DNA of 31,165 nucleotides, taken from the IMG/VR virus record IMGVR_UViG_3300010885_006447, positions 1 through 31,165 of that record; one strand, written 5' to 3'. Positions 894-26,849 of the stretch are shown piece after piece; position 1 is the first letter of the stretch, and each line of letters starts with the position of its first letter. A program made the position numbers and the translations under genes. Under the pieces are notes generated by a model, which saw only the letters and a list, made by a program, of their open reading frames with translations, searched no databases and was not told where the DNA came from. The DNA comes from a virus.

Positions 894-1328
894 ATGAAAG
901 AACAGATTGTATGCAGTGGCGCCTTATTTTATGCTAAATCAACTCGACGTTTCCTACTGCTACAAAAAGCAGAAGGTAAACACGCAGGTACCTGGGGCCT
1001 AGTTGGCGGCACTAATATAGAAGGTGAGTCAGCTTGGCAAGGACTACAACGAGAAATAGTTGAAGAAATAGGTCTTATGCCCACTATTCTTAAAACAATT
1101 CCTCTTGAGACATTTGTAAGTAACGATACTGTCTTCAACTTTCACACTTATCTATGTGTTATTGACTCAGAGTTTGTGCCAGTATTAAGCAATGAACATG
1201 CAGGATGGGCATGGGCAACAATAGACAGAGCCCCTAAACCGTTACATCAGGGGCTCCGCAATAGTTTTAGTTCAAAAACTATTCGTACAAAACTACAAAC
1301 AGTATTCGATCTAGTTGATTTAATTTAA
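894..1328 (+). CDS. Nudix (MutT-like) hydrolase
   Basis: This 144-residue protein carries a complete Nudix box fitting GX5EX7REUXEEXGU: G39, E45, then R53-E54-I-V-E57-E58-I-G60-L61. The glutamates in REIVEE bind the catalytic divalent metals. The family hydrolyses nucleoside diphosphates linked to another group (oxidised or surplus NTPs, NDP-sugars, ADP-ribose, dinucleoside polyphosphates or RNA caps). The substrate cannot be told from this sequence. It is a single-domain, soluble, cytoplasmic enzyme of usual length with no signal peptide. T4-like phages often carry such enzymes (NudE in T4). No strong Shine-Dalgarno is visible before the ATG, so it may depend on translation of the upstream gene, 13 bases away. 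Its last 9 bases overlap the end of the convergent gene on the other strand. Confidence 0.93.
   Translation: MKEQIVCSGALFYAKSTRRFLLLQKAEGKHAGTWGLVGGTNIEGESAWQGLQREIVEEIGLMPTILKTIPLETFVSNDTVFNFHTYLCVIDSEFVPVLSNEHAGWAWATIDRAPKPLHQGLRNSFSSKTIRTKLQTVFDLVDLI
1228..1256. terminator. Perfect inverted repeat, possible leftward terminator
   Basis: GAGCCCCT at 1228-1235 pairs perfectly with AGGGGCTC at 1249-1256 across a 13-base loop, giving an 8-bp GC-rich stem. It lies inside the Nudix gene, about 65 bases past the stop of the last leftward gene, where the leftward transcript would be expected to end. On the leftward strand the stem is followed by TGTCTATTGTTG, which is only moderately T-rich. It is therefore not a textbook intrinsic terminator and could be coincidental coding sequence. 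Confidence 0.3.
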
Positions 1329-1782: not shown

Positions 1783-4191
1783 TTAAAAATATTTGTAACG
1801 TACTATGACGATTCCTGATCCGCCAGCGGCTCCAAATGTTGCGCCCTGTCCACCGCCTCCACCGCCGCCACCGGTGTTTGCTAGGCCTGCAATTGGGTTA
1901 ACGTTAACTCCCGCGGCTCCGCCTCCGTAGCCACCACCTCCGCGGCCACCTGCACCCGGGGCAGGGTTACCGTTATTGTTTCCGCCACCTGCGCCACCAC
2001 CACCACCATACCAAGTAGCAGTGCCTGAGATCTCAACTAATATGCCGTCACCGCCGCGACCGCCTTGACCACCTGATCCGCCGTTTAAGCCAAATGCCTG
2101 CCCTTCCTCGCCAGGCATCCCTGCTCCACCGCCACCACCGCCAGGATAGCCTGCGGCTACTGGGCCAAGGCCGCCTCGATTTCCTTGTCCAGCAGTGCCT
2201 GCACCTCCGTAACAGACAATACTACTAGTACGACCACCGCCACCTCCGGAGCCGCCTGACCTAGCATTATTGTTATTAACTTGTCCGCCACCGCCACCGC
2301 CGACAGCAGTGATTGTGCCAAAAATAGAGTTACTGCCGTTGTTGCCTGCGCCAGTGGTTTGTGCGCCGCCTGCACCCACAGTTACAGTATATCGACGTCC
2401 GGCAGTTACAGCATATTGAGTATTATAAACAACTCCGCCAGCACCTCCGCCACCGCCTTCTCCGGGGCCACCGCTACCTCCTCCTGCAACTACTAACACT
2501 TCAACTGTGCCAGTTACTGCTGGAGCAAAGCTAGAAGTACCCACAGTAGTGTAAGTATGTACTAGCCAGTTACCGACTCTGCCTGGAGCTGGTGAATAAC
2601 TTTCTACAGTTTTAGTATACAAACCTGGTGTTGCTACATCTTTCTCAACTTGCAATCCCCAAGCAAAATAGTTAGTGCTAGTGCTACCTGCATATGAGCC
2701 TAATCCGTTTTGATTTGCTATGTAGAAAGTAATACCTGTTGTAGTTTTTCTAAATGTAGCATAACACCTATACCATCCATTTCCTACATCTTGAATACCC
2801 TGAGCAATTGCTGATCCTCCAAATCCACTAGTAGTACCTGCTGATCCGCCACTAATATTAAATGTAGCAGTGCCCTCGCCGTTTGTATGTAAAGTAATTT
2901 GTGTAACGTTTGTATTATTTTTAAAGAATCCACTGAAGCAATATAATGATCCTACAACAGTTGATCCAAATGGAACGTTTTGATACAACAAATGTTGTGC
3001 AGTTGTTGCTGTTTCAGCAATACCAATAGCAGTTCCTACTCCATATGCCGCTGGTATTGCAGTTGTGCCCGATGAGGTTAATGCTGACAGCGTCCATCCT
3101 GGAGTCAATGCCTCACTATAGGTCATTAGATTATGACCACTATAGTTTCTACGTGAATCAAGTGCTTGCCAACCACGCGGTTGATTTATTTCAATACCGC
3201 CAATATCAGTATTATATTCTACTACACCTGTTGGATCCGTGGCATTAGTAGGCAAGTTATAGCGAACAATAACAATACCACTGCCGCCTGTTCCGCCTAT
3301 GCGTAGATTACTAGCGCCGCTGTATCCTGCCGCGCCACCACCACCACCTGTGTTAGCAGTAGCATCACAGTAGCCAACAGCAGGAGTTCCGTTAGAACCT
3401 TTTCCGCCACCACCTAGGCCGCCTTGTCCTTCGCCGTCACTTTGTCCACTTCCACCACCACCGCCGGCATACCAAGTAGGCGTTCCGCTGATATCAAAGT
3501 TAAGTCCGTTACCACCTGCACCCGGTCTGCTGTCATAACGAGCATTATATCCCGGCTCGCCAGCACCACCACCACCGCCACCTGGGTAATATTGGTCGCC
3601 GTAGCCACCACGATTTCCGTAAGATTGTGCATTTGCATAAGTTGGTTGATTGCTAAACCCTGGAACACTAAATGGGTAAGTGACATCTGTTAGGCCCTGA
3701 TGGAATGATCCACCGCCACCACCTGATCCACCATTTTGTCCTTTTTGTCCGCCTGGATAACTCAGTCCTGAACCAGCAACAGTACCAAACATTCCTCCAC
3801 CACCACCACCTTTGGCAATTAATACTCCAAATGCAGAGTCACTGCCGTTTGCACCACACATGTCTCCGTTAATCTGTTGCCAACCTAGTCCACCTAGTCC
3901 GCCGGCGCCGACTACAACAGTATAACTAGATCCTGGAGTAACTGGATAACTTGGGGAATAAACTAATCCTCCTGCTCCACCACCTCCGCAAAATGATCCC
4001 GATCCGCCGCCTCCACCTGCTACTACTAATACTTCGATAGCTGTAACACCTGCCGGGCATACCCATGGTGTTCCTGCGGTCACAGTAGTATAAGAAGTTA
4101 TAACAGTTCCAGTTGTTGGGCGTGTAGCCGTAGTAACTATAGGTATACTAAGATTAGAACCGGTGATCGTTGTATTTTTTAATATTGCCAT
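1783..4191 (-). CDS. Glycine-rich adhesin/tail-fibre-like protein with CBM-like domain (802 aa)
   Basis: Two polyglycine modules flank a beta-sandwich. Module 1 (about residues 42-310) opens with WVCPAGVTAIEVLVVAGGG and closes with GSGIVIVRY. Module 2 (about 545-802) opens with TGTVEVLVVAGGG and closes with GSGIVIVRYKYF at the very C-terminus. Between them, residues about 355-530 hold a carbohydrate-binding-like domain: NLMTYSEAL..GWTL, then YCFSGFFKN, GNGWYRCYATF and GLQVEKDVATPGLY. The N-terminus has the TATRPTTGT motif common to phage fibre proteins. Polyglycine sandwiches are known in T-even-type adhesins (gp38 of S16/T2), so surface binding is the likely role, on the virion exterior. It follows the 726-aa relative by 30 bases. 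It is third of three related genes. Confidence 0.85.
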   Translation of the reverse strand: MAILKNTTITGSNLSIPIVTTATRPTTGTVITSYTTVTAGTPWVCPAGVTAIEVLVVAGGGGGSGSFCGGGGAGGLVYSPSYPVTPGSSYTVVVGAGGLGGLGWQQINGDMCGANGSDSAFGVLIAKGGGGGGMFGTVAGSGLSYPGGQKGQNGGSGGGGGSFHQGLTDVTYPFSVPGFSNQPTYANAQSYGNRGGYGDQYYPGGGGGGAGEPGYNARYDSRPGAGGNGLNFDISGTPTWYAGGGGGSGQSDGEGQGGLGGGGKGSNGTPAVGYCDATANTGGGGGAAGYSGASNLRIGGTGGSGIVIVRYNLPTNATDPTGVVEYNTDIGGIEINQPRGWQALDSRRNYSGHNLMTYSEALTPGWTLSALTSSGTTAIPAAYGVGTAIGIAETATTAQHLLYQNVPFGSTVVGSLYCFSGFFKNNTNVTQITLHTNGEGTATFNISGGSAGTTSGFGGSAIAQGIQDVGNGWYRCYATFRKTTTGITFYIANQNGLGSYAGSTSTNYFAWGLQVEKDVATPGLYTKTVESYSPAPGRVGNWLVHTYTTVGTSSFAPAVTGTVEVLVVAGGGSGGPGEGGGGGAGGVVYNTQYAVTAGRRYTVTVGAGGAQTTGAGNNGSNSIFGTITAVGGGGGGQVNNNNARSGGSGGGGGRTSSIVCYGGAGTAGQGNRGGLGPVAAGYPGGGGGGAGMPGEEGQAFGLNGGSGGQGGRGGDGILVEISGTATWYGGGGGAGGGNNNGNPAPGAGGRGGGGYGGGAAGVNVNPIAGLANTGGGGGGGGQGATFGAAGGSGIVIVRYKYF

Positions 4192-4211
4192 TTTTATATT
4201 ATTCCGTGTTT

Positions 4212-4219
4212 ACTTTATA
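4212..4219 (-). promoter_or_regulatory. Possible T4-like late promoter box
   Basis: TATAAAGT on the leftward strand lies 20 bases ahead of the ATG at 4191, in the 30-base AT-rich gap between two adhesin genes. It matches the T4 late consensus TATAAATA at six of eight positions. The spacing equals that of the box before the giant gene A. In such AT-rich gaps a chance match is quite possible. Confidence 0.22.
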
Positions 4220-4221
4220 TA

Positions 4222-6402
4222 TTACTGTGGAGGATACCATTTGATAATAACTATTCCCGAACCGCCTGCGGCTCCCCATCTAGTTCTTGCGCCGCCGCCC
4301 GCTGAGCCACCACCACCACCGCCTCCGGTATTTGGAGAACCAGCTTGTGGGTAGAATAAATGACCGCCACCTCGACCACCACCACCTAAGCCGCCAGCGC
4401 CTGCTTGGAACTGATGTTCTCCACCACCGCCACCGCCACCGGCATAATATGTCAATACTCCTGAGATAGCATAAGGTAATCCGTCGCCACCTTTGCCTCC
4501 CCATGCGCCAACTCCGTTGCCTACACCTGCAGTTATTGAACTTCCAACATATGCTCCTGGAACCACATTCTGTCCACCTGAGCCGGCTCCGCCACCGCCG
4601 CCGCCGCCACCGTTGGTAATACTGTTACCGTGACCACCTTGATTTCCCTGTGCTAGAGTACCAGCGGTGTTTGTGCCATTAGCACCGCCACTTCCACCAG
4701 CTGAGCCGCCACTACCACCGTTGTTACTATATCCCGCGCCATATCCACCACCTGTGGCAGTATAACCAAATGCCACCGAGTTTGATCCTGCATTGCCGTT
4801 ACTGTTAGCGCCAGACTGCTTTCTTGCGCCGCCTGCACCCACTGTTATTGTATATGTTGTTCCAGGAGTAACATCAAGAGCTGATATGTATACTAATCCA
4901 CCTGCACCACCGCCACCTCCGTGGCCTTCGCCACCTGATCCGCCGCCTGCTACTATTAATGCTTCTACTTTAGTAACGCCCGTTGGGCAAATCCATGTTT
5001 GATCGCCAATATGTGTAAAGATTTGTGATACAGGGACTGGATTTGGGTTAAGATATCTAACTATAGCAATACCACAAGCACCGTCACCACTAAATCCTGA
5101 ACTACGGTCAGCGGCTCCGCCACCTCCTCCTGTATTGGGTGTGGCAGGACCTGCAATATTTTGATGACCATCTGACCCGCCACCTACTCCTCCAACACCG
5201 TTTGTACTATATAGTGCTGTACTATATCCGCCCATGTTGGCCGCAATAGTTGAGCCGCCGCCGCCACCTGCGTACCATGTTGTTGCGCCACTGATGTCAA
5301 AAGCCAGTCCAGGGCCACCGGATCCTGCATTTTTATTTGCGTCTGCTGTACCGCCAACTCCACCTGCGCCACCACCACCGCCACCTGCATAACTGTCATT
5401 TACTCCGCCTGCAAAACCCTGTCCTGCTGTTGCGGCACCTACTGATCCGCCTGCGCCACCAGCGCCACCACCACTACCTCCGGCAACGGCTGCATAACTA
5501 TTTGCGCCTCCGCCGCCTCCGCCAATAGCTGTTAGTGATCCAAATGCTGAGTTTCCACCGTTTTTTCCTTGTTGGTCAAATAATAAACGACCTTGTGCGC
5601 CTCGACCAATAGCAACAGCGTATGATGTTCCAGCTGTTACTGGAAATGCTGAATTATATATTAAACCACCTGCTCCGCCACCTGCACCATTATGTGTTCC
5701 GCCTGAGCCTCCACCTGCAACTAATAATACTTCAACAGTTCCAGTCATCTGTGGTACAAACGCATGAGTATAATGATATGCGTACATATTTTTCATGACC
5801 AGGCCTTGGCCGTTACCAGTGGCAATTGCTTCAGCGCCGCTTGCACTACACATCTCTATAGTAATCTCGTCGCCATCAACTACAGATAATCCTGTTACTA
5901 TAAATTTTCTATAGGCATGTACTGAACTAGTATCGTCTTGGTAAAACGGGCCCGAACTAAATCCGCCTGTAGCAATAGTTGTAGCGTTATTTCTTCTAAT
6001 ACGATAGGCCCAATAATAAGTACCGCTTATAATGTATGCTTCAAATCTAACATCCATTGAGCCAGTTCTAGTGCAACGGAATCTTTTTTGTACTTTAAAG
6101 TTGGCATCTGATGATGTTGTATTAATTTCTGCTACGTCTGCTGCCATTAGTTCATACAAAAATGTGTGATTAACATATGGACCGTAGTGTCCCACAATGC
6201 CGCCTGTGGCTCTGTTGTACTGATTCAGTGGGGTATTATCAACAAACTCAATCCATGTACTACCAGTATAATATTCAGTATATCGTAGATCAGTATTGTA
6301 TCTAACCATTCCTGCTACACCCGTAGGTCTTGTGGCCGTAGACCCTTGTGGCATTTTAAGTAGGCCAGTTGTTGCAATTGCAGTTGTTAGTAAATTTGCC
6401 AT
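4222..6402 (-). CDS. Glycine-rich adhesin/tail-fibre-like protein (726 aa)
   Basis: The N-terminus has the phage fibre signature TATRPTGVAGMVRYNTDLRY then EYYTGSTWIEF (residues about 20-53). Residues about 65-215 form a beta-rich domain (VGHYGPYVNHTFLYELMAAD; RRNNATTIATGGFSSGPF; FIVTGLSVVDGDEITI) that I do not recognise; it looks like a jelly-roll head. Two polyglycine modules follow: about 221-449 (TGTVEVLLVAGGG to GIAIVRYLNP) and about 466-726 (WICPTGVTKVEALIVAGGG to GSGIVIIKWYPPQ). It has no membrane segment or signal peptide. By relation to its two neighbours it is a receptor-binding candidate. It ends 30 bases before the 802-aa gene. The opposite strand shows long proline-rich open frames that are only a mirror of the glycine codons. 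Confidence 0.84.
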   Translation of the reverse strand: MANLLTTAIATTGLLKMPQGSTATRPTGVAGMVRYNTDLRYTEYYTGSTWIEFVDNTPLNQYNRATGGIVGHYGPYVNHTFLYELMAADVAEINTTSSDANFKVQKRFRCTRTGSMDVRFEAYIISGTYYWAYRIRRNNATTIATGGFSSGPFYQDDTSSVHAYRKFIVTGLSVVDGDEITIEMCSASGAEAIATGNGQGLVMKNMYAYHYTHAFVPQMTGTVEVLLVAGGGSGGTHNGAGGGAGGLIYNSAFPVTAGTSYAVAIGRGAQGRLLFDQQGKNGGNSAFGSLTAIGGGGGGANSYAAVAGGSGGGAGGAGGSVGAATAGQGFAGGVNDSYAGGGGGGAGGVGGTADANKNAGSGGPGLAFDISGATTWYAGGGGGSTIAANMGGYSTALYSTNGVGGVGGGSDGHQNIAGPATPNTGGGGGAADRSSGFSGDGACGIAIVRYLNPNPVPVSQIFTHIGDQTWICPTGVTKVEALIVAGGGSGGEGHGGGGGAGGLVYISALDVTPGTTYTITVGAGGARKQSGANSNGNAGSNSVAFGYTATGGGYGAGYSNNGGSGGSAGGSGGANGTNTAGTLAQGNQGGHGNSITNGGGGGGGGAGSGGQNVVPGAYVGSSITAGVGNGVGAWGGKGGDGLPYAISGVLTYYAGGGGGGGEHQFQAGAGGLGGGGRGGGHLFYPQAGSPNTGGGGGGGSAGGGARTRWGAAGGSGIVIIKWYPPQ

Positions 6403-6426
6403 TGTTAATATTTTTCCATTTAATAC

Positions 6427-9057
6427 TTAAGAGATTTTAAGCCAGTAGCTTGCTGGTTGACTCCATCCTTGCGAGTGTGCGCTATTCCAATTTGAATATG
6501 CCGGACTTGCAAATGTGTAAGTGTCATAAGTTGGTGATATTGAGTAGCCCCAGTTGTCGGTAATGTTGTCAAAGTTTCCTGGATATGTGGGCCATCCTGC
6601 TCCGCCTGTTACTGCGGCTGTTCCGCCTTCAGCAAATCCACAACCATCGTTTCTATTGTCAAGAGTATAGCCGTCAAAAGTCATGCCATTCTGAGTGCTG
6701 CCGCCCCAACAAGATTTAAGCCAAGTGTTGGCTGTGACGTTGTTGTTTACTGTGTCTACTCCGCTACTAGAGCCGCCGTTCCAGTCGTTTTTATTTCGTG
6801 CTCTGTAACCTTCAACACCCAACCAACGAGCATTGCCGTCAAGGTTAAAATACCAGTTTTTCCAAGTTGTGCCTGCATTAAGAATTCTAAAACAGGCTAC
6901 ACCCTTATTTCTTCCGTTGATAACTAGTGCGTCAATAAATGGCTGACCTAGGTTGCCTGCTGTGCTGCCTGTTTGACCTGTGTTGATTATTGAAGTATTT
7001 TGTGAAAACATGTTAAAGGGAACGTTGACTTCAAAATCATCTACGTGGCGTCCATCAGTAACTGAAGGTCCACAAAAACTCATTAACATCCATCCGCCGC
7101 CTGCGTTGGTCATGTCACACCATACTTGTTTTGGTTGTCCAGTAAATCCTGCTGGCAAAATCCAATAGTATCCGTTGGTTGTTGTTCCTGTTAAGCGTTT
7201 GATAGCCATAGCACTTGGTGCTGGATTATCAATAGTTGATCCAATGTTACCGTTTACCTGTGGTCGATCATAGGAAATCCTAGTGGTATTGTAGTTTTGT
7301 AATACTTCTCTTTCTAATAATGCACGAGAATACACTCTTATGGTAGAAAGTCTACCTAGCCACCCGCCAGTTTCGCCAGCATTTGTTTTGCCAACAAGTG
7401 AAGATTCCGGCCAGCCAACTGACGAAATGCCGTACCATACGGCTGTTCCTGAAAATCTTCCATTAATAAAGTATTTAATAAGCCCGTTTTCCACAGTTGC
7501 AACCACATGGCTCCATGTGTTTAGTGGAACAGTGCCTGCACTATATGAGTATCTTGGATTGCCGTCGTAATGATATAACTGCACCTTACCGTCTGTATAT
7601 ACACCAAAATTCATGTATACATTGCCCTTGCCAAGAATACATTTTTGCAAATATTGTTGGGTTGGGGAACCATATCCGGTTGGATAAACCCATGTTTCAA
7701 AAGTAAATGCGGCTGTTGCAGTATAATTGAACATGGCTACAGGTAATGTGCCGTATGCGGCTCCTGTACCAGCTAGTGTAAAGTATGACGGTAAAATAAT
7801 TGTTGATCCAGCAGTATAACTAGGAGTCCCAGTTAGTGTGGCATCATTACCTCTATTGCTAACGTCAGTCCAAGTAGTATTGCTTGTTATAAAGCTAGTT
7901 GCAGACAGATGAGTTACTATGCCGTTGGAGACAATACCAGATGATATATCGTCAATTTCCCATGTGTTGCCTGCACTGAATGTTTCTACTACACCGGGAG
8001 CTGTATTAAATCTAAGTTGCCCTACAGGTTGTGTAGTTGACGTTGCTAGTGTGAATCGAATGATAACAACGCCACTGCCGCCGTTACCTGAAACGTTAAC
8101 AGAAATACCCATTCCGCCACCGCCACCGCCAGTACTTGCACCTGCGGCGCCGCCAATACAGTTTGGAGTTGCACTGCCATTAATACCGTCGGCACCATTA
8201 TTGACTCCGCCTTTGCCGCCCAGGCCTGCCACGTTAGGAGTTCCTGAGTTTGCTGTCCATACAGCTCCGCCGCCACCACCACCAACGCCACCATTGCCTG
8301 CTGTAGATCCAAAACCGCTACCGTTTTGTGCGCCGCCACCACCGCCTCCTGCGTAAAAATAAGAAGTTCCGCTGATGCTAAATGCCAGTCCAGGGCCACC
8401 ATTGCCGCCATCTTTTCCAGGTCCTACTGCGTCTGCACCTTTGCCGCCTGCGCCGCCACCACCTGCGCCACTATATGGTCCGTTAGAATACCATAAGATT
8501 TTATCACCACCCGGAAATCCCTGTCCTGCTGTGCCTGCACCGCCGTAATGTGCAATTGCATTAGTTGTATCGTGGCCTGCGCCACCTCCACTTCCGCCGC
8601 TTGCACCGTTGATATTACTAGTTCCGTAGGCACCTCCACCTCCACCGCCAATAGCAGTTAATGTACCAAACACACTGTTTGTTCCATTTACGCCTATAGC
8701 GTTAGCCGATCCGGCGCCAGTAAACCCGGCGCCACCTGTGCCCACAGTTACAGAGTATGCTGTACCAGGAACTACAGGAAATGCTGAGTTATATATTAAT
8801 CCACCTGCGCCACCACCGCCTGCTGATCCGCCAGCTCCTCCGCCAGCAACTACTAATACTTCAATGCTAGTAACACCAGTTGGGCATGTCCACGATGTAT
8901 TAGATACTGTTCCGCCAGATCCGGCTAGTACAGTAAACGCTTGACTACCAGTGTTAGTCCACTGTATTGCAGTATTGGAAAATAAACTAGGGCGAGTTGC
9001 GCTTGGTAATGTTAAGTTTCCGGTGTCATTTACGGTTAAACTTTGCAGGTTTGCCAT
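6427..9057 (-). CDS. Glycine-rich adhesin with LamG and fibrinogen-like domains (876 aa)
   Basis: Three recognisable domains follow one another. Residues about 55-335 are a polyglycine module (WTCPTGVTSIEVLVVAGGG to GSGVVIIRFT). Residues about 445-595 look like a LamG/concanavalin-type sandwich: AFTFETWVYP, then LNTWSHVVATVENGLIKYFI with NGRFSG, and IRVYSRALLEREV. Residues about 612-876 start with TNGYYWILP and QVWCDMTNAGGGWMLM, the hallmark opening of a fibrinogen C-terminal-like domain. They continue with cysteines in KSCWGG and DGCGF and end in ASYWLKIS. All three are sugar- or surface-binding folds, so a receptor-binding role outside the capsid is likely. The start is one base after the stop of the S74 gene, suggesting translational coupling; AAAAGGG in the upstream gene's end could be its ribosome site. 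Confidence 0.87.
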   Translation of the reverse strand: MANLQSLTVNDTGNLTLPSATRPSLFSNTAIQWTNTGSQAFTVLAGSGGTVSNTSWTCPTGVTSIEVLVVAGGGAGGSAGGGGAGGLIYNSAFPVVPGTAYSVTVGTGGAGFTGAGSANAIGVNGTNSVFGTLTAIGGGGGGAYGTSNINGASGGSGGGAGHDTTNAIAHYGGAGTAGQGFPGGDKILWYSNGPYSGAGGGGAGGKGADAVGPGKDGGNGGPGLAFSISGTSYFYAGGGGGGAQNGSGFGSTAGNGGVGGGGGGAVWTANSGTPNVAGLGGKGGVNNGADGINGSATPNCIGGAAGASTGGGGGGMGISVNVSGNGGSGVVIIRFTLATSTTQPVGQLRFNTAPGVVETFSAGNTWEIDDISSGIVSNGIVTHLSATSFITSNTTWTDVSNRGNDATLTGTPSYTAGSTIILPSYFTLAGTGAAYGTLPVAMFNYTATAAFTFETWVYPTGYGSPTQQYLQKCILGKGNVYMNFGVYTDGKVQLYHYDGNPRYSYSAGTVPLNTWSHVVATVENGLIKYFINGRFSGTAVWYGISSVGWPESSLVGKTNAGETGGWLGRLSTIRVYSRALLEREVLQNYNTTRISYDRPQVNGNIGSTIDNPAPSAMAIKRLTGTTTNGYYWILPAGFTGQPKQVWCDMTNAGGGWMLMSFCGPSVTDGRHVDDFEVNVPFNMFSQNTSIINTGQTGSTAGNLGQPFIDALVINGRNKGVACFRILNAGTTWKNWYFNLDGNARWLGVEGYRARNKNDWNGGSSSGVDTVNNNVTANTWLKSCWGGSTQNGMTFDGYTLDNRNDGCGFAEGGTAAVTGGAGWPTYPGNFDNITDNWGYSISPTYDTYTFASPAYSNWNSAHSQGWSQPASYWLKIS

Positions 9058-9058
9058 A

Positions 9059-10150
9059 TTACTTTAACCCTTTTAACTCATTGATTTCTTCTTTTAATGA
9101 TTTGATTGCTTCTACTAGATAAGCAGTTAATTTAGTATAGTGAATTCCTTCTGGATCACCGTTTGCATTTTTGCTAACAATATTTGGAATGATTCTGTTT
9201 ACTTCTTCAGCAATTAATCCTGCTTCAGCTTTACTTGAACCGTCTCGACGATCGTATGTGACGCCAACTAAGTTTAAAACTGCATCTAGTGCGCCAGTAA
9301 TAGGATTAACATTTTCTTTTAATGCAATACTTGAACTTTCTGTTAGTGCTGTTACTGTTAATGTACCGGTTGATGCGTTAAAAGAAAACTTGCTAGCAGT
9401 TGTTTTACCAGCAGTCAAACTTCCAGTTGCGCTTGTTGACAGCACTGGATATAATGTAGTTGATGCTACGTCGTCTGCTAACGATGCACCAACAGACGAC
9501 CAGCTCAATACTCCACTTCCGTTACTAGTAAGAGCATAACCAGATACTGAAGCATCAGCCGCTGGTAATGTATATGTTCCACTAGTAGTTGTTGCTGCCG
9601 CTTGAAAAGTAACAGTTCCGCTAGTAGAGCCTATTAGTCTTAACTTGCCCGATTGTCCAGAAGATCCAACTGTGATGTTTTTATTAACAGCTACACCACC
9701 TGCAAATGTTGCCGCGCCAGTTGACGCACTAGTCGAATCATCGGTTGAACTTGCTACAATATTAAAACCAGTTGATCCTGTTGCTGAGACTTGTCCGCTA
9801 AATGCACCAGTTGTAGCAGTTATTGGACCACCCCCTGCACCCATTGTTACCCAGTTCACACCATCACTGAATAGGGTAGTTGTAGTACCAGTTGACATAG
9901 TTTGACTTGTTGTGCCGCTGCCGCCAGGACCTGTAAAAACTCCCCCGCCGCTTGTGGTAAACGATAGTGTAATAGTACCGCTGGCAGCATTATAAAAAGT
10001 CTGTGATTGACCAGCAAATAGTAAAGGATCTCCAATAGTTACAGTATAACTAGTACCTGTAAGTTTTGTAAATGCACCAGATCCCGGAGATGTAAAGGCT
10101 GCGGTTGTTGACGCAGTTGCTGATGATATTACCGTATTATAACGTGCCAT
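9059..10150 (-). CDS. Tail-fibre protein with C-terminal S74 intramolecular chaperone (363 aa)
   Basis: The first 270 residues are Ser/Thr/Gly-rich beta repeats of fibre type (TGTYTLPAADASVSGYALTS; GAATFAGGVAVNKNITVGS). Residues 273-363 fit the peptidase S74 / endosialidase chaperone domain: SSIALKENVNPITGALDAVL, then GVTYDRRDGSSKAEAGLIAEE, PNIVSK, and a C-terminal coiled helix (AIKSLKEEINELKGLK). In that family the domain drives trimer folding and then cuts itself off at a Ser, helped by a Lys five residues on. Ser273 and Lys278 have this spacing. The mature product would therefore be about 272 residues and trimeric. AGAGAG before the ATG is the likely ribosome site. It sits 20 bases after the 117-aa gene and one base before the next adhesin. 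Confidence 0.88.
   Translation of the reverse strand: MARYNTVISSATASTTAAFTSPGSGAFTKLTGTSYTVTIGDPLLFAGQSQTFYNAASGTITLSFTTSGGGVFTGPGGSGTTSQTMSTGTTTTLFSDGVNWVTMGAGGGPITATTGAFSGQVSATGSTGFNIVASSTDDSTSASTGAATFAGGVAVNKNITVGSSGQSGKLRLIGSTSGTVTFQAAATTTSGTYTLPAADASVSGYALTSNGSGVLSWSSVGASLADDVASTTLYPVLSTSATGSLTAGKTTASKFSFNASTGTLTVTALTESSSIALKENVNPITGALDAVLNLVGVTYDRRDGSSKAEAGLIAEEVNRIIPNIVSKNANGDPEGIHYTKLTAYLVEAIKSLKEEINELKGLK
9062..9334 (-). other. S74 self-cleaving chaperone domain
   Basis: Codes for residues 273-363 of the fibre protein. Predicted self-cleavage is just before or at Ser273-Ser274, with Lys278 as partner. The GLIAEEV motif and the closing helix with heptad-like leucines are family marks. 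Cleavage is inferred from the family, not shown. Confidence 0.75.
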
Positions 10151-10170: not shown

Positions 10171-10524
10171 TTATACTGTTGATGTTTCAATGCCGTAAAT
10201 GTTAACGTTTACGTTGGCGGTTGACGCATATACAGTAATGTATTTTGCACCAGTAGTACTACTTAAAACTAGACCTGTTCTTTCAAATACGCCCTTTGGT
10301 GCAACTACTGTGTCATATTCGATAGCTTCGCTAGGTACTAATGAACCAGTTGGTGATCCAGCAGTTCCTAAACTAGTACCTAGATACAAACGGATAGTTG
10401 CTGCCGATGTGCCTGTATTTGTAAAACTTACGTTACACACGGTGTATGTAGTTGATGGTACCATGTAGGCAGTTGTTGCTGTAGTTGCCGACGGTGTACC
10501 TGTGTATAAAATTCCTGTTGCCAT
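10171..10524 (-). CDS. Small beta-rich virion-associated protein (117 aa)
   Basis: The sequence MATGILYTGTPSATTATTAY, then VSFTNTGTSAATIRLYLG, VVAPKGVFERTGLVLSS and VNVNIYGIE predicts an all-beta sandwich with no signal peptide or membrane segment. Short proteins of this kind occur beside fibre genes in marine T4-like phages and are usually called structural or hypothetical. Its plan (NxGtsaaxIxL, then an 'apkg' turn, then GLVL, then a closing strand ending in E) resembles the truncated protein at 30865-31164. GGAGAAA ahead of the ATG is a clear ribosome site. It lies 24 bases after giant gene A and 20 bases before the S74 gene. A capping, head-decoration or fibre-joint role is possible but unproven. 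Confidence 0.75.
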   Translation of the reverse strand: MATGILYTGTPSATTATTAYMVPSTTYTVCNVSFTNTGTSAATIRLYLGTSLGTAGSPTGSLVPSEAIEYDTVVAPKGVFERTGLVLSSTTGAKYITVYASTANVNVNIYGIETSTV

Positions 10525-10548: not shown

Positions 10549-13500
10549 TTATCTTTGTCCGAAATATACTAAAGCAACTGGTGCCCCATCTATTCCGCCC
10601 GTAAATGTCATTTTACTACTTACGTAGATTTGTGCATTGTTAGTATTACTTATCGTATTTCCAGCAATGTATATCTGTCCTGATGTGATAGTATTTACGT
10701 TCAGCGAACTCTGACCGCCACCAATCTGTGCTGTAATAAATGCTTTAATAGCCTTCTGTGTAGGTACTACACCATCACTGTTAGCTGTAAAGTACGGATC
10801 AGTTGAGAACTGATAAATTGTTGCTGATCCAACTCCTAAACTAACTGATCCAAGTGTCAAACTCTGTAGGCCTGACAAGTTAAACGCACTAGCGTTCAAT
10901 GTAGCAGTACCAGTTGACTGTTGAACTCCGAACAAATTACCAACGTTGAAGTTACCGTCTTGGTCAGTACTTGTAAAGAATACTCGTCCGCCACCAACAA
11001 ACAACTCTTGATTTGCTGATACTGCTTTAGTAGCATCAACATACGGATAATTAGTAGCTGTGACACCACCTGTACCAATATACAAGAAATCATGTCCAGT
11101 TAGTCGAACGTTACTATAAGACAAGTTAGTTGTGATCAACTCATTGTGTGCTGGCGCTAACAATGTTGATAGTCCAGGATTAATCTGGAATGTAGCACTA
11201 TAGTTACCTGGAACCCCTAGTACATTAGTTACACTAACTAGTTTATACCAGCGATTAGTTCCTGTAATACTACTGAATACCACATTACATCCTGCGGTTG
11301 GTATTTGATATAGACCACTTACGTTTACATACGAACCTACTTGATACAAGTCAGCATATCCATCACCTAAATAGCTTGCTGTAGCAGTTGTGTTAGCAGT
11401 ACCTCGATGTGCAAAACTTGGATTACCTAATGCGCCATTACCAATACGTGCAACAAGTGGTGCTGTGTTAACCTTGTTAGGATCAGTTTGTGTAATGATT
11501 GGGCCTGCAAAGTATGTCATTCCAGATGGAGTAGATGCTGTTAACGCAAAGACTGCTCCACCAGCTGTAGTAGATATTTGAATAGTACCTGCTAGCCCAC
11601 TTGTACTTGTTGGAGTTCCCTTAACATAATAATATGTTCCAGCAACAATACCGCCAGAACTTGTGCCATTAAACACAATAGGTTGGTTAGCTGTTAAGTT
11701 GCTAATATTATCAACGGTGATAGTACCAGTACTTGTTGTGCTTGTTGCTGTAACATTACCGCGTGGAAATCCACTGCCTGGTTCGATCATTCTAACTTCA
11801 CTAACTTGATTGTTAACGACCTTGATACGGCCTTGTGGGCGAGCACCAGTCTGTATTCTAGTAGCAGTCTTACCGCTAGTATTAGATACGGCTACCCATG
11901 TTGGAACTGCACCTAATGTAGCATTTTGAGGATTACCAAATACTAGACCTAACCAGTTGCTTGAACTTGGCATACCGGTTGCATAGTAAGTCCAGTTTAG
12001 ACCATCTGGACTAGTAGCTACTGCTTGGCTTGAAGTTGCTACGGCAACAAACAATCCCTGGCCGTATCTAATTCTACTCCAAGTTGTTATACCGTTGGCA
12101 TATAGTGGGTTGTTTAGTACAGTAACCCATGTGTTATTTGCCGCAGGTGATGGAGTTGTTACCCAAGCATTTGTTTGCCAGTTAGTTGTATAGCATAAAG
12201 TTCCATCACTGGCCAGTGCCACAAAACGTCCATTACCGTATGTAACACTTGCCCAAGTTTTACTTGGTAATGTTGCACCTGCATACCATACTGTTGGATC
12301 TGCCGCAGTAAATGAACTTACAGTTCCGCCAATTGCACAGAATACTCCTGCACCGTAGGTAATATTAGTATAACCCGAGGCGTTTGTTGTAATGTTGCTT
12401 GATCGATCTGACCATGTGCCAGATGGACTACCACTTAATGATACTGCTGACGCACCGCTTGTACCACCAACAGCAATGTATAAATTATTACCATATGCTA
12501 GTGATTTAAGATTAGTTTTACCTGTTGTTCCGCCAGTAGCACTCCATGTTCCGCCTTGATCTGCACTATATGCCGCAGATGCTGTAGCTGTAGAAATAGC
12601 CACAAATGCCGCGTTTGGATCTGTTACTGTCACTGCTGGAGTCGTAGTATACCCATAACCTGGTTGTGATATAGTATAACTTGTTACGCCATAACCTGCC
12701 GCATTAGTATTTGTGTTGGCTCCGGCTACTGCTAGTGTTCCAACATACGCTAATGATACGTTAGTTCCGCCGCTACCGACACCGCTAGCACCGTAACCAG
12801 ATTTACCATAAACTGCATTGGTAAATGTTGGTTTTGTTGAGCTAAATGTTGTTCCTGATCCACTAGCATAATAGTAGTTAGTCACGTTTGGACTTACAGT
12901 TGTATCAACTGCTGAATAATAATTTCCAGCTGTTACGGCGCCACCTGAACTCCAACCAGTGGCTGTAAATGGAGGTGCAATAGTTACAATAGGACTAGCA
13001 TAGTATCCGCTACCCCATGTTGTAGCAGTAATACTTGATAAGCTACCTGTTACAGCAGTAATAATTGGGCTTACATATAAGCTACCAGTGATTATCATAT
13101 CAACTGCCTGTATAGAACCGTTTAATACACGAGCTGTTGCTGTTGCTCCGGCACCAGTTGCATCTGTAATAACAATAGTTGGCGGTGTTAGATAGTTATA
13201 TCCGCCGCTGACTACAGTAATGCTGATAATTTGTCCTGCTGTATTTCCAGTTCCAATAACTGCTGTTAAGACAGCACCCGATCCGCCAACGCCTCCAACT
13301 ATTGCAGTAGCTGTTGCATTTTGGCCGCCACCGTATACAACACTTCCCCATTGAGCACTTGCATCTGTTGGTAATGCTCCGCCGGCTGCCCATGTAGTTC
13401 CGTCTGCGGTAGTTGCTGTACTGGCAACTCCTGTAGCATTTGATGTAGCAACAAACTTGCCTTGACCGTATGCTACGCTTGCCCATGTAGTAGTTACTGC

Positions 13501-16500
13501 CGCTGTCATTGTAATTGCTGTACTAGTAAATCCTGGTGCAGTATAAGACAACGCTGGTTCAATAATATATCCGGATGTAGCATCTAGCAACGAGTAAACT
13601 GTGTTACCCGGAACTACATGATCCCATCCTGCTTCATATACTGGAACTGCAATAGTTCCAGTGATCGCTGTACTTGCTAAGTTTTGGCTTACGCTAACAG
13701 TCCAAGTTGACCCTGCTCCCGAACCGCTAATATTAGCAACAACGTATGTGTTAGGTAATACTGATCCGCCGGTTAGCAACATACCTGGATAGATTGTACC
13801 CGATGTTAATGTTCCTACAGTTAGTGTAGTTCCAACAATAATCGATGCGGCTGTTACTGCGGGGGTTGCACTAGTTGCGTTCAATGAAATATTAGTACCT
13901 GCGGCAGCATTTGCAGCCGAAGTAGCTAGTCTAAATGTTGTGCTGGTTAAACTTGTTGTACTTACATAGTAAACTGTTCCAGTAGTTAAACCAGCAATAG
14001 CCGCACCTAAATAGATTGGTTGTCCAACATGCATAGTTGCTGTGCTAGCCACTGTGAATACTGTAGTATTGTTTGTTGTAATAGTCAGTGTTGCAAAACT
14101 TGGACGAACTACGTTAGCGAGTTTGTTGCTTTGAGCATATCCAATGATATTGGCGTATTGTCCTACGCCTGTACCAGCTATAAGTTGGATTCTCATACCA
14201 ACATAAGCCGAACTTAGTTGAATATCACTGTTAGCAATAGTTATAGTACCGACTGTACCAGTCTGTGCTACGTTACTTGCTGTTAGATAGTTGCTGCCGC
14301 CTGTTCCTTGTCCGTTGTTTAAGTCAACTAGTCGTGTTTCAAACACTGCCGAGTCACGGAACTCGTCTTGTATTGTTACAATATTATATCCTGCTCCGTT
14401 AACTGTTGGCAATGTATTTGTGTATTGGCTACCTGCGTTTTCAAATTCTAAACGTAGAATCTCATCAACACTGTCTGTTACTACGTTTGTAACGTATGCT
14501 GGGCTAGCACGGTTATTTAAACGACCGTAAATTGGAGTTTCATAACTGTCAATACCTTCAGCAATAACACCATATGTACCATATGAACTATTACCGTTAG
14601 TAGCACGGATACGTCCACCGTATTCTGCTAGGTAACCTGCATATGAATAGTATGCGAATACTGAAACAAGTTCAGTTAAGGCGTTAGACCCAGTACACCA
14701 TACGCCAATACCATCACTGATAATAGTTGTGTAGTCGTTAGCAACAATAGATTTATTACCGCCAGCATGTAATGCCGCGTCAATCTTCATACCGCTACAT
14801 CCAGAACCAAACAATGTCAAGTTTTGTGTATACGGTGAGCGATTACTAATCCATGCCGCGCTGTCGCTAGGACCAAATCCTGCGTCAAGACTTGAGTAAG
14901 ATCCAGCTGTTGGTCGGCGAGTTCCTAGTGCATTAGGCAAAGTTAGTGCGCCATTTAACCCGTTTGTAGTCATATTACGTAATCCAGAAGCATTACGTAG
15001 ATGGAACAAGTCTGTTGCTGTAGAACCGCCTTGTGCTGACAGGTAAATTCTTGCAGAACGTGTTGATTTATAGTTACCTGTTAATCCTAAGTCGTAAATT
15101 AATCCGTCAATGTGATAAGTTGCATCACGTACTGCCTTAGTTGTATCAATAAAATAGCTTACAGTCATTGTACCGGTGCCGCCAGTTAATGTTTTAGTAG
15201 TTTGTGTTCCTTTTCCGGGCTGTGTTATTGACACAGTCAATGTTGCAGTAGTTGGGGTTGTTAATACCCAGTATACTGTGGTTGGTGAAAGACTAACATC
15301 AAATACGGTACCGCTGAATACTACAGGATCGCCTACTGTTAAGTTATGTGCTCCGCTACAAGTAATTGTGCCGTTAGTAGCTGTAGTTGTTACTGTTCCT
15401 GTAAACTGCGATAGAACATATGCAACTGCTTCGTTAGCTAAAAATTCTTTATTAGCACGGATAATTTCTGCACCTTGAATAGTAGCCAATGTATTATTAT
15501 AACCACTGGTCATACTGTATGATCCTGTTGGATTATTCCAAGGTTGAATAGTTCCGTTAGTATTTTTATCACAAATGCCTTGATTGATCGGCATACCTGC
15601 TGTGCATGTAGCTGTTAAACTTCCAACGGTATTAGTAATTGCAAATGCTGTGCCACTCTTATATGACTCAGTAACTGTAATTGTAGTGCCTGCAGAAGGA
15701 TATGTGCCAGCAGTTACAGTATTGATCCAATACTGAGCACCGTTTACTAGGCCGCCTGCGGCATTGAAGTTTGCTGTTAATGTTAATCCAGTAGCATTAG
15801 TCAATACCAATGCTGTTCCGCCCAGTGTCGCGGCAATAGTAATTGCACTTGCACTTGCAGTCTTAACATAATAAACTTGATTAGATACAATGCTTGATTG
15901 AGTACCTGTAGCTTGTGGTGTAAATCCTGTGAACCAAACTTTTTGTCCAACAACTACACCTAGTGAGCTTACTGTTGCACCAAGTGTAATGCTACTACTT
16001 GAAATAGTAGTTGCTGTTGTGGTAATATTTGCAGGCAATCCAGTGAATACAATTGGCATGTTAACTAGCATGCCAGCATTACTTGTAACAGTAATCAAGT
16101 TTGTACTTGTAGTTACAGTGGATACTGGGATAGTTGTTCCACTTGCTGTAATATCTGTTGTTAGACCAAGACCACCATAGATGCCATAGACAACTGCCGT
16201 CATGGCTCCTGTGCCAGCACTTGTAATATCAAATGTTGTGCCAAGATATGTTTGGCTAATTGTAAACTGTGTTGAACTCAATACTTGTTTAATATAGTAT
16301 GTGCCTGCTACAAGATTACTAATAGTTGTTCCTGTAATAGTAATAACTAGGCCTGGGACAAACCCGCTAGTAGTACCTGCTGTAAGAACATCATTGTATG
16401 TATTTCCATTAAGAACAATACTTGTAGTTGCGCTTGTAATACTAGTAGTAGTAGATGCCGCTGATTGATTATAGTTTAATAACCATGTTGTACCACTACC

Positions 16501-19500
16501 TGAAACAATAGTAGTACCGTTAGCAATGCCAATGCCTGCTAGTTGCATACCTACTGCAATAGTTCCTGTTACTGCACTATTAACTACTAGTTGTGTACCG
16601 GTAATTGTACCGTTAAATGTTGCTGTTGTTGTGGGTTGTCCGTAAATCTGTGCAACCATTTCGTCGATAACAGTTCTAGTTTGTACTACAGAACCATTTG
16701 AAGCCACTAGTTTAACACGTTCGCCAATAAATCCGATAGATCCATATGTCGAGTCTGCAAGGCTTGTATGTAGTGTAGCAACTGAAGTAACTAGTCTGTT
16801 GTATGAACGACCGCATTGAATACTTTGGAAGTTGCTGCCGAATAGCACGTCATATGCCAATGCACTAACAACGTAACCTGCATCACGATTTGTTAATGAT
16901 AGAATTGGACTTTCATTTTGATAGAATCGTGTTACCCATGATTGAGCATCATTTGCAATTTCACTAGCGCGAGCCTGTACTGCATCATATGATGCTTTGT
17001 TTGCTGTTGATGCTAGTGCGTATGCACCTGATACTATTGGGGTAATAACTAGTGTAGAACCAGTAGCTGTAGCCGACTGGCTTATGCTGATAGTCCAGCT
17101 TGTTCCAGATCCTGCTGTGATATAAGTGCCTGCGGCAATAGTACCACCTGTAACAATCTGTCCAATCTTGATTGTACCGCTTACACCACTAACTGTTAGT
17201 GTTGTACCGCTTGTTGTTCCAGTGAATGTTGCCGCTGATGTATCAGCTGAGCCATTATTGATCCAGTATAAAATATCTGCTACACGAGCCTGTGCAAATG
17301 CCGCGGCTGCGGCAGATCCTGCTGTACCAGTTATATATTGTGTGGTTGTGTTTCCAACGCTTTCTGTAACATTTGCCTTGGTAATAACTTGGCCAATAAC
17401 TGTTGATAATCTAGCTAGCGAGTTTTGTACACCTTTTAAATATGGTGCAAATAGTTGCGCTGTATTCAAACTGTAGTATGAACTACCAGTGATTACTGAC
17501 TGAGTGTTGCTACCATAAGTTAAGTCGTAGCAGATTGCGTCAAGCATAAATCCTAGATCGCGTTTTGTTTCTGCTTTATAAGTTTCGCTGTAGTTTACCC
17601 ACTGTTCAGAACCAGTTAGGTTTGTGTCAGTGTTTAAGAAAGCAACAATCTCATCTTTAATGTACTGATAGTTAGCCTTAATCAATGTTACTGCGTCACC
17701 GTAGTTAGCAAGATATGATGTGTTATACCCTGTAACTGTTGGCATACTGATAGTTGGCTCATATGACAATCCGTTAGGATAGTTTGGATTAGTTGGGCCA
17801 GTAATAACTGCGCCTGCACTAAACATGTCTTGAATAATTTTAGTATTGTTAACTACAAGATTAACAGCTGATAAATTACCTGTGTCGCCTGCAGGTAATG
17901 ATGTTACCTGAGTTGCGGTGTTAGGGAATGTTGTTCCTGTAGTAGTAGGAGTAATTGTAGTATTGGCTACTAGATCAGCAACTACTGATTGAATACGCAA
18001 TAGCGCGGCTGATGTCTTAGGTCTGTCATTGCCTAGATATTGTTGTGGGCCAGCAACTTGCACAATCGTGCTACGTAGTTCGTCGCCAACAACAGCAGTA
18101 TATGCCGGAACTACAATCGGACCATATTCATTATATGTTCCTGTTTTTAAATATATTGTAGTATTTGGACGAACTAGTTGAGGAATATTTCCATATGTGC
18201 CTGCTATTAATGCGCCAGTAATGATGCTTAATAAGTCTTGCGCGATTACTGTTGAGCCATTTTCAATCAAACTAGTAGTTACAGTAGTTCTATTTTGAAT
18301 AGCGTTAACGCTAACACCGTTTAAAGTTTGATAATTGGCTGCTGGCGCAGAGTTAGTCATCACTGCTGGAAATAGCGTGTCTTTTAAATATGCAAGACTT
18401 CCTGCAAATACAGGAGCTTGTTGAGCAGTACCGGTACTAGTGAAACTTGTTAATGTTCTAAAGTATGCTTGAGTAGCAGTTACACTATATAAGTTTCCGC
18501 CGTGAGTTAAGTCAAATATGATACCATCAATAACTGTTCCAGTATCTCGCTCTGCTTTACTCTGTGTATAGTTAAATGTAGCTGTTGATGCTGTAACACT
18601 ACTAGGAGTAATTGCTCGAGTCGAGCCACTTTGATATACATCACTAATTGTAAATGTTCCACTAGTTGGAATAGTATTTACATAGTAAACAGTTCCCACT
18701 GTTACGCCACCTGTTGCTGCCGAGAATGTAATAGGCATGCCATAATACATAGTCGCTGTAGTTATTTGGCTTGTACTACTAGTTCCGCCTACAATAAATG
18801 TGTTCCCGCTAGCACTTGTTCCAGTTACATTAAATGAATACTTGTTTAGAATATATTGGTTAACTTCTTTTATCATAAACTGTTTATTAACAGTTAATGC
18901 CAATCCGGCGTTAGAGTTTAAATATCCGTTTTCAATTTGTTTGCAAGCATATAACAAAGTTCCCCATGGTTTATCTAATGTTAAACCGTATCCGTTGCCA
19001 GATGCATCGGTGCCTGAAGGTGCAACATATACAATATTTTGTAGTTCACCATAGTATTTCCAACTTGGCTCATCGCCGTCAACACGTAAAACTTGACCAT
19101 CGAGACCAATTGGTAGTCGTACAGGACCATTTGCCCCGTAATATACCATGTCACCTTGTGTAGTCAATGCTCCGCTGTCAGCTCCGCTGGCTAATATGTT
19201 CCAGTAAGTTCCACTATCAGTAAGTGGGTCATTAACACCGGTAGACCCAGTATGAGCACTAATACAGATATAGCTACTATTTCCGTAATATACTGCATCA
19301 CCGTCAACGTAAGTTATACCAGTCTTCCAAGTTGCCGCATAACCCGTAGATACAGTAAATGTACCGATCGGACCTGTTGCTCCGCCGCCGGTGATAGTTG
19401 CTACTTTAACAACCAAATCGTTGCCAGGGCTTGCTCCACCTAATGCGCTACCTAACACTTTTAATGTGTCATTGACTGTGTATCCAGTCCCTGCTGTACT

Positions 19501-20877: not shown

Positions 20878-23800
20878 TTATCGTCTTCTCATAAACATAT
20901 CTAACGCTGCCATATTTCCGTCTACACCTTTACCTGTAATATACATCTTGTTGGCAATTTTAACAGCCGACCCAATGGAGCCGTTAGCCACAGTTGATCT
21001 AATAAAGTTTGGTCCGCCGACGTTTACAGTACCAGCAATAAAATTACCAGTAAATGTATTTGCGCCGCCTTGACTTAAACGTCCGGTTAAGAACGACTTA
21101 ACTGCTCGCTGTGTTGGCACTATTGCATCTGAGTTTGCGGCAAAAGTTGGGTCTGTACTAAATTGTGTAATAACTACGCTCGAACTTCCTACAGCAATGC
21201 CGCCTAGGCTCAACGTTTCTAATCCAGTTAATCCAAATTGTGTTGCACTTAGGGTAACTGTTCCTGTTGCCTGTTGTACTCCAAACAAGCCGCCAACACT
21301 AAAGTTACCATTTTCGTCTGTACTAGTATAGAAAATATGTCCTTGATTTGTTTCGACTGCCTGTTGATTTATTTTTGCTGTTGTAATGTCAATATATGGA
21401 TAATTAGCTGTGGCTTTATTTCCTGTGCCGACAAGCAAGAAGTCATGATTGGTTACACGACACTGACTATATAATTGACGGAGCTGAATTTGTGTTCCGT
21501 TTGCCGGACTCAATGTTGTAGTCATTTCAGGTGATATTTGTACACTTGCTTCGATAAACGGAGCTGTTGTCCCAAATACGGCTGTAGCACTAGTTACCTT
21601 ATAGACTTGATCGATTCCTGCAATAGATAAATTGCTACCAACTAACGGTACGGTATTTAGATTACTAACAATTAAGTTTAATCCTATTTGATACGTGTCT
21701 GCATAACCATTACCTGTAATTGTTACTACAGTTGAAGTTGTGTTATATCCAGTTCCTCTATTAACAAAAGTTGGATTACCTAAAGAACCGTTACTTATGC
21801 GTGGTGTAACTGTTGCGTTAACTGATACGTTGTAATCAATAAGGCTTACAGAAGGTACTGAGGTATACCCGGAACCAGTTTCCCATATAGATACTCCTGA
21901 TATCACTCCAGAGTTAACACTTGGTCTACCCTGTGCTCTTGCACCTTCACTGATTACTGTTGCATTTCCGGACGAGTTACCATCTCCAGTTAATGTTGCA
22001 AATACCCCAACATTAGAACTATTAAATCCAAACTTTATTGCATTAATACTTCCGTATGTTAATGTCCTTGTTTTCCAATAGATGCTGTGCTCACTGGCAT
22101 ACGCAGTTGTACTTTCAGAGTTCACAGCTACAAATACTCCTTGACCGTAACTTATCGAAGTTGCAGACATGTAGGTTGCTGATTTCTGCCAGTTAACTCC
22201 GTCAAAGCTGTATGCTGAACGTAAACCTGTTCCTGTCTGTACTGCTACAAATTTATTATTTCCAAAGGTTACATCAGTATATTCTGGTGCGCCAACTGCA
22301 AATGTTAATCCAGCTGTTGTACCTGCGCCAGTTGTTATTGGATTTGTTCCTTGAATTGCGTTAATATAAGTGGTTGCAAGAGTAAATGATGTTTTACCGT
22401 TAGTTGCACTAATATAATAAGTACCGTTTGTGATAGTACACTGACCGCCTGTACCAGCTGCCGGACTAAGTGCGCCTGATACCCTAATACTCTGTCCAAC
22501 TACTAATTGAGTAGTAGTAGTTGTACAAGTAAACTGTCCGGCACTACCAATAATAGTTACGCCACTTAACGTAGTATTGCTTATAGGCAATGTAGAAGAA
22601 GTCCATGTTACACCGTCTGGACTCCAAGCTGTTTGCCCTGTACTATTAACAGCAACAAATAGTCCAGAACCATATGTTAGTGCTACCCATGAACCAATAG
22701 TACTTGTAATAGCTGTGCTTGCGTCACTATTATCTAAATGCATTAATAACATTGTATTTGTATCAGATGTAAAGGGTGCTATTGCAGGACTAAATGTAGT
22801 TGTATATCTACTTACGCCTCTACTAACACGCACTTCATCAATATAACCAGTAGCATTTAGTGATCCAGTCCATGATGCTCCTATTCTTATTGGTCTGGCT
22901 GCATAGGTATTAGCATCTGTATAAGTTGTAGGGGTTAACGTGCCGTTAACAAATATTCTGGTTATTCCACTTGCTCTTGACACCGCTACATGATTCCATG
23001 CGCCTGCTGAACAAGCTACGCTAGATGTAATCTGATAAGCGTTATTAACAAATAATCTTATATTTCCAGATGCATTCATTTCTAAATATATTGCCGCATC
23101 ATTACCAGAACTACGTTGATCAATTAATACCTGTTGTGCTCCAATGGCAGTTGGTCTCCAGAAAAATTCAATAGTGAAGTCTTCGTTGTTATATGCAAAC
23201 TTTTCATCGCTTGCTACAGTAATATAGCTTGATCCGTTTAAGTATAAACTAGAAATACCAAATTTGTATTGCGTAGTACTTATTACAGGACTTCCTGTTA
23301 GTGTCACTGCGGTACTACTTGGTAAACTAGTTGCTGTCCATGTTTGTGCTTGATTAGTTGAGTATGCTGTGCGGGTGTTATCACTGCTGATGGCTACAAA
23401 AGTTCCATTACCATAGGCAATCTTACTCCATGTTGACTTGGTAGGTAATGCGCTAGTTCTCCATCCTAGTCCGTTGGAATTAGTATATGCTACTACAGAG
23501 GTACTGCCAATTGTAGTTGTTCCTAGTGCCGCAAAATAGTAGTTTCCATATGCAATACTGCTCCATGATGCTACTGTAGGAGGTAGCGCCACTGATGACC
23601 ATGTAGAACCATTTGATGATGCCGCTCCTACAGATCCGGTAGTTGGCGTTGCTATAAAGTAGTTGTTGCCATAAGCTATGCTGTTAAAAGATGCCCCACC
23701 AGTTAGTGGTGTTTCTACATTTCCAGACGACTGAGAATACGCTGGCAATGTAAACACTGTTCTAGGTTCAATAAAGTATGCGCTTGTTGAATCAAGAGCT

Positions 23801-26661: not shown

Positions 26662-26849
26662 AATTGATTTGCTTCCGCCATTATGCAGATAGCCGTCAAT
26701 TTTAATTCCTGTAGAGCCGTCACCAAATACTGTAACGTTTTGTACATAAGGGCTACGTCGAATAATCCATACGCTAGTATCATTAGGTCCGGTTCCTGGG
26801 TCTAAACTAGTGTATGCGCCGCCTGTTGGTCTAGCTGTATCATATTCGT

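Follow-up and report, generated by a model that had tools for sequence, protein, structure and literature searches.

Three tandem adhesin genes of a T4-like phage lineage as candidate chains of a heterotrimeric host-recognition tip

Three consecutive genes for glycine-rich proteins lie next to a tail-fiber gene in a virus record of 31,165 bases (here called the window), which is probably a fragment. They raise the question of what the proteins do and why there are three of them. A preliminary description of this DNA had reported three tandem genes with five copies of one module, and this was confirmed: the 802-aa and 726-aa proteins carry two copies each, and the 876-aa protein carries one (Table 1). 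The module ends that it quoted are approximate, with "VEVLVVAGGG" occurring exactly in one of the five modules and "GGSGIVIVRY" in two. The three proteins are very probably adhesins of some kind.

Table 1 Features of the adhesin locus and its upstream neighbors in the window
Feature	Position	Strand	Remarks
Adhesin gene 3 (802 aa)	1783..4191	-	Tag, TG module, EYNT motif, carbohydrate-binding-like domain, TG module
TG module 1b, aa 542-802 of 802-aa protein	1786..2568	-	Module chosen for structure prediction
Partner domain of 802-aa protein, aa 313-545	2557..3255	-	Resembles RcGTA head-spike fiber
TG module 1a, aa 28-314 of 802-aa protein	3250..4110	-	
Adhesin gene 2 (726 aa)	4222..6402	-	Tag, RYNT-W motif, partner domain without match, two TG modules
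TG module 2b, aa 458-726 of 726-aa protein	4225..5031	-	
TG module 2a, aa 200-452 of 726-aa protein	5047..5805	-	
Partner domain of 726-aa protein, ~aa 55-205	5788..6240	-	No match in PDB sequence search; model of low confidence
Adhesin gene 1 (876 aa)	6427..9057	-	N-terminal tag, TG module, RFNT motif, LamG, fibrinogen-like C terminus
Fibrinogen-like C-terminal region of gene 1, weak	6430..7260	-	Match in first ~50 residues only; tenascin, E 5e-5
Laminin_G_3 domain, aa 432-585 of 876-aa protein	7303..7764	-	Pfam, E 7e-21
TG module 3a, aa 40-338 of 876-aa protein	8044..8940	-	
MARYNT fiber gene (363 aa), Peptidase_S74 chaperone domain	9059..10150	-	Upstream neighbor of adhesin set
117-aa gene	10171..10524	-	Anchor for finding relatives
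3422-aa fiber gene	10549..20817	-	Conserved backbone of locus

A known module and its partner domains

The five modules are 48 to 56% identical to one another overall and 26 to 38% identical at aligned positions other than Gly-Gly. All 10 pair scores (434 to 569) exceeded the best of 100 shuffles that preserved glycine positions (best scores, 270 to 396). The module is already known and not new: all five copies belong to the Pfam family Gly_rich_2 (PF21722; 162.6, 154.9, and 61.3 bits against a cut-off of 24.3), a sequence family to which our results attached no structure or function. Module 1b was modeled with AlphaFold2 on a 24-row alignment of modules from the window and from viral contigs, and it was the only one of the five modeled alone with high confidence (mean pLDDT, 92.9; pTM, 0.91). 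In VIA-align, its best match was the Pam3 fiber 7ypx (Z 16.0; 2.3 Å over 175 residues), with a second Pam3 structure at Z 14.9 and the Bxb1 tail tip at Z 15.3. The matches to Pam3 and Bxb1 span most of the module. Among the structural matches listed, ALK/LTK followed at Z 9.2 and lower, and the remaining chains started from 4.7. Pam3 fibers were also the best match of a module profile against PDB sequences (E 1e-5, with strong composition bias). These results support the prediction that the module is a TNF-like plus glycine-rich (TG) domain. The ordered glycine-rich fold that the preliminary description had expected therefore holds up as a prediction, but its T-even precedent gives way to the TG domain of Pam3 gp24; the T-even gp38 adhesin was absent among the fold matches listed for module 1b, an absence that excludes nothing. 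A BFVD search with the fold returned 221 matches at E <= 0.001. Since the fold is this widespread in viral proteins, the module itself is ordinary.

The partner domains differ from gene to gene, as had been proposed: a Laminin_G_3 domain in the 876-aa protein, a middle domain in the 802-aa protein that matches the RcGTA head-spike fiber (PDB sequences, E 2.6e-8), and an N-terminal domain in the 726-aa protein for which a search of PDB sequences gave no match. Over a short stretch, the RcGTA-like domain also matches a structural protein of Synechococcus phage ACG-2014h, and the fibrinogen-like stretch of the 876-aa protein scored below the Pfam cut-off (20.3 versus 22 bits). A full-length model of the 726-aa protein (P0002; mean pLDDT, 63.2) was too poor to describe its N-terminal domain; near the N terminus it has strands and no long helices, the first residues being of low confidence. 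By eye, the first ~25 residues of all three chains form a similar tag that finishes near TATRP or AQRP, and an R/E-F/Y-N-T motif follows it, directly or beyond an inserted TG module. As judged from these sequences, the tag may be the docking part of the chain.

A fixed site with hypervariable adhesins

On the minus strand, the gene for the 3422-aa fiber is followed by the 117-aa gene, the S74 fiber gene, and then the 876-, 726-, and 802-aa adhesin genes. Searches for related loci with P0003 and P0002 as queries found no relative, and megablast of 20 kb found no phage record. A tblastn search of phages with one module also gave no hit, probably because low-complexity filtering masks so glycine-rich a query. 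A first set of 18 related records was found through the 124-aa gene; PF21722 was present in six of them at E 0.001 (five above the cut-off) and the 117-aa gene in 16. The relatives are T4-like, with Gp23 in 9 of 10 records and a gp15-like tail-sheath stabilizer nearby. A psbA-type reaction-centre gene, checked as a sign of a cyanobacterial host, was absent from all 22 records, some of which are fragments.

Around the adhesins, the neighbors are conserved. Aligned segments of the 3422-aa fiber are 71 to 88% identical in the close relatives L080, L081, L083, L084, and L087, and the version in G011 (the contig of L100, in the 90%-identity cluster of L099) matches it at 88% identity along most of the protein. 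In L099, the nearest relative, the 117-aa protein is 97% identical and the S74 fiber 73% identical to those of the window, whereas the adhesins are 39, 42, and 44% identical; the corresponding values for L101 are 87%, 83%, and 39, 52, and 49%. The partner domains in the adhesins of the closest relative also differ from those of the window. Hypervariable adhesins at a fixed site support the earlier proposal of a cassette of exchangeable adhesins. LamG was kept in gene 1 of the window, L099, and L101, and the weak fibrinogen-like match is to gene 1 in the window and to gene 3 in L099. Such labels shared with other triplets (LamG, fibrinogen-like, CBM_4_9) come from Pfam only, some below the cut-off. 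The idea that the partner domains have sequence orthologs in other triplets received no support from phmmer. The second half of the L099 gene at 13901-15826 encodes another glycine-rich domain of a different sequence type, ALK/LTK-like by eye and without a Pfam match.

Recombination through shared GGN-rich DNA, also suggested in the preliminary description, found no support within the window, where the modules have no long tract in common. The longest exact DNA match between modules was 14 to 20 bases, within or near the values for synonymous shuffles. Shared 14-mers totaled 76 (shuffle mean, 28.5; maximum, 53), a modest excess of a kind that homology alone can give.

Other features of the region were noted. 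A second large fiber gene, at 20878-30436 on the minus strand, is apparently split over three frames (open reading frames of 582, 621, and 1927 aa); its homolog is intact in the relative L087 (725-10018), and the split is either a broken gene or an assembly error. A NUDIX gene (894-1328, plus strand) lies beside a tail-sheath-stabilizer-like gene, and this pair bounds the far side of the adhesin region in several relatives. Most of the loci L081, L083, L084, and L088 to L098 have genes, lacking in the window, after or flanking the adhesin set. They encode flavoproteins like tryptophan halogenases (E 1e-28 to 1e-109 for the three that were scanned), a NodU-like carbamoyltransferase (from a scan of one), and numerous short proteins resembling 2OG-Fe(II) oxygenases by eye. 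The products of these halogenase-, carbamoyltransferase-, and oxygenase-like genes may act as modifying enzymes on the tips or on the cell surface.

Three paralogs as the usual number

The 117-aa gene fetched 63 loci, which with the window made 64. These were collapsed into 40 clusters, loci being joined when their DNA had at least 90% identity across 60% of the first 4 kb downstream. Exactly three mutual paralogs followed the fiber gene in 27 of the 40 clusters. One other cluster had four paralogs (two of them 98% identical), two (L151 and L158) had two, nine had one such gene or none, and one (L118) was cut by the contig end. Among the triplets, L123 stops 196 bases from its contig end, where a fourth gene is possible. 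When runs of at least two were compared, threes made up 27 of 30, versus 8 of 36 for other paralog sets of the same stretches (Fisher p 2e-8, for loci that share ancestry and so are not independent cases, and with control counts taken by eye). The adhesin set is interrupted by ~2.4 kb of other sequence in two loci.

Chain lengths are nearly equal in many triplets, the ratio of longest to shortest being at most 1.10 in 18 of 27. Examples are 283/284/286 aa (the compact triplet L112), 175/175/176 aa, and 279/279/282 aa; L107 (361/382/373 aa) and L146 (314/322/322 aa) are compact triplets as well. Pairwise identities within a triplet are often nearly equal as well (57/63/63, 40/39/43, and 61/60/61). 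The window (ratio, 1.21) and its closest relatives are among the exceptions in length; L156 has the highest ratio, 1.78. In the family famB, the middle gene alone has ~180 extra residues in three of five loci (L109, L119, and L139); in gene 2 of L119, the one that was aligned, they lie between the stalk and the TG domain.

One gene per triplet was scanned to type the tips, and these are of several unrelated types (TG, C1q, S74, and others). Besides TG triplets, we found a C1q tip in L146 (26.2 bits; cut-off, 23.7), a C1q match slightly under that cut-off in L123 (23.2 bits), an S74 tip in L141, the tail-fiber tip phrog_6942 in L108 and L145, and an unclassified type in L159. Cultured phages carry such genes too. 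In the cyanophage S-CAM1 (L163), genes 226 to 224 are three neighboring mutual paralogs near a homologous gene, and P-SSM2 (L162) has two such genes. Cysteine-rich, glycine-rich tips with Cys-Cys-Cys runs were seen in L153, L085, L092, S-CAM1, and P-SSM2, and they look like a cysteine-rich branch of this tip type.

Trees of the genes by position were quick ones with SH-aLRT support only, less trustworthy than a careful method. Three position clades were recovered in famA for L112/L113/L114/L135 (support, 95 to 100) and likewise for L115/L136/L157 (90 to 98). Genes also grouped by position in L107/L117 (95 to 99), in L106/L156 (92 to 100), and in famD, where L121 (of the L123 cluster) grouped with L146 (99 to 100). 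The grouping was partial in famB, with position 3 together in all five loci (98). Gene 1 of the window grouped by position (100, three loci) and gene 2 grouped with that of L101 (99); gene 3 showed no resolved position grouping. The L104 triplet grouped by locus rather than position, and genes 2 and 3 of L099 grouped together (80).

Three chains of one tip or three adhesins

Tips of phage fibers are commonly trimers, usually described as homotrimers. The explanation that we put first, with the scales about level on these sequences, is that each of the three genes supplies one chain of a single heterotrimeric host-recognition tip. The modules with their predicted fold, the fixed site, the hypervariability, and the usual number of three are results of this analysis; virion location, receptor binding, docking through the tag, and 1:1:1 assembly are inferred. 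The three genes would encode receptor-binding tip proteins of a T4-like phage tail fiber. The short N-terminal tag would probably dock each chain to the fiber or baseplate, the TG domains would form TNF-like strands bearing a bundle of glycine-rich loops, and the extra lectin-like domains of the window would touch the host surface. The three chains would most likely assemble one of each, and host range would be changed by replacing or reshuffling the distal domains while the three-chain frame is kept. More tentatively, a broad T4-like lineage may build an obligate A-B-C heterotrimer, keeping the three-chain frame and swapping the tip fold, which would give an asymmetric tip with three receptor surfaces that evolve separately. 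The animal C1q A/B/C system is a comparison for such an asymmetric three-chain tip.

We put the heterotrimer first because three genes of equal length and equal divergence, with position-specific descent, are the pattern that a mixed trimer would be expected to leave, and because the virophage DSLV2 is reported to have the same signature. As described in the DSLV2 paper (PMC12724248), three consecutive tail proteins of comparable length group by position, co-purify as a complex of the mass expected for a heterotrimer, and have a receptor-binding role; the authors relate them to tail proteins of Synechococcus phages. The DSLV2 proteins differ in having collar-domain (PF07484) tips on a virophage capsid (PMC12724248); the three window proteins gave no match to that domain up to E 0.01. 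Subscription literature was mostly outside our search, which found the virophage paper and, among the titles listed, no earlier report of a three-gene or heterotrimeric phage tip.

Pam3, the closest structural relative, points the other way. According to its report, the TNF-like domain of the Pam3 fiber extends into a glycine-rich lattice proposed to bind the host, with conserved stems and variable tips (PMC9608196). Pam3 gp24 (7ypx/7yfw) is like the predicted module in fold, but it is a homotrimer made from one gene, with a helical N terminus and a separate chaperone, and the window has three genes whose chains carry several modules as well as lectin-like domains. Trimerization of gp24 is mainly by its N-terminal helices, with loose TG contacts, which counts against a heterotrimer (PMC9608196). 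The T-even gp38 of S16 shares a glycine-rich distal recognition domain but has a beta-helix domain in place of the TNF-like one of Pam3 (PMC9608196). Among marine phages of Synechococcus, S-ShM2 (genes 033 to 035), like S-CAM1, has neighboring genes after its tail-fiber genes; a Gly_rich_2 module occurs in 034, and the match of 035 is to the fibrinogen-like part, but related N termini extend to 032 and 036, so that the set is not a clean three.

The main alternative is that the genes encode three independent adhesins. Each would be a monomer or homotrimer, would recognize a receptor of its own, and would dock at an equivalent site by the shared tag. Several specificities per virion would then broaden host range with no mixed trimer. 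We regard this as a serious rival, above all for the window, though the less likely of the two. It is favored by the one-protein trimer of Pam3 and by the similar tags, as well as by the different partner domains and unequal chains of the window, whose one, two, and two TG modules in different orders call for caution about the heterotrimer. The clusters with four, two, one, or no such genes and the two genes of P-SSM2 count against a mixed trimer too, as do the other sequence inside the set in two loci, the by-locus grouping of L104, the pairing of genes 2 and 3 in L099, and gene 3 of the window. Separate adhesins leave unexplained, however, why there are exactly three in 27 of 40 clusters across unrelated tip folds and why the three chains have diverged equally.

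The number could also be mostly a matter of common descent, from one ancestral triplication with no functional demand; such an origin is compatible with either assembly. A single anchor gene brought in all 63 loci, hence their ancestry is shared at this site, and position clades mark old, inherited copies. We nevertheless consider it unlikely that descent accounts for most of the count, as one family's distal domains are unrelated to another's (TG, C1q, S74, and phrog_6942) and three were kept through replacement of the tip. Further, two famA groups each have their own three position clades, which suggests a repeated return to three. Least probable of all, and in our view improbable, is that the proteins are virion surface or capsid decorations or fiber-assembly helpers. 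The PHROG links, to "unknown function" (phrog_2295) and "tail fiber assembly" (phrog_863), would fit such roles, but the genes adjoin fiber genes, the best fold matches are a phage fiber tip and a tail tip, the partner domains are lectin-like, and the adhesins are hypervariable relative to their neighbors.

The cassette reading was right. What deserves following is that three genes prevail even where the tip folds are unrelated. A real heterotrimer would connect phages with the one described for a virophage in 2025 (PMC12724248). Were three different chains in use throughout a large phage group, each could have a receptor of its own. Specificity would then reside in a matched three-gene set and not in one gene, and genomes would have to be read differently for host range.
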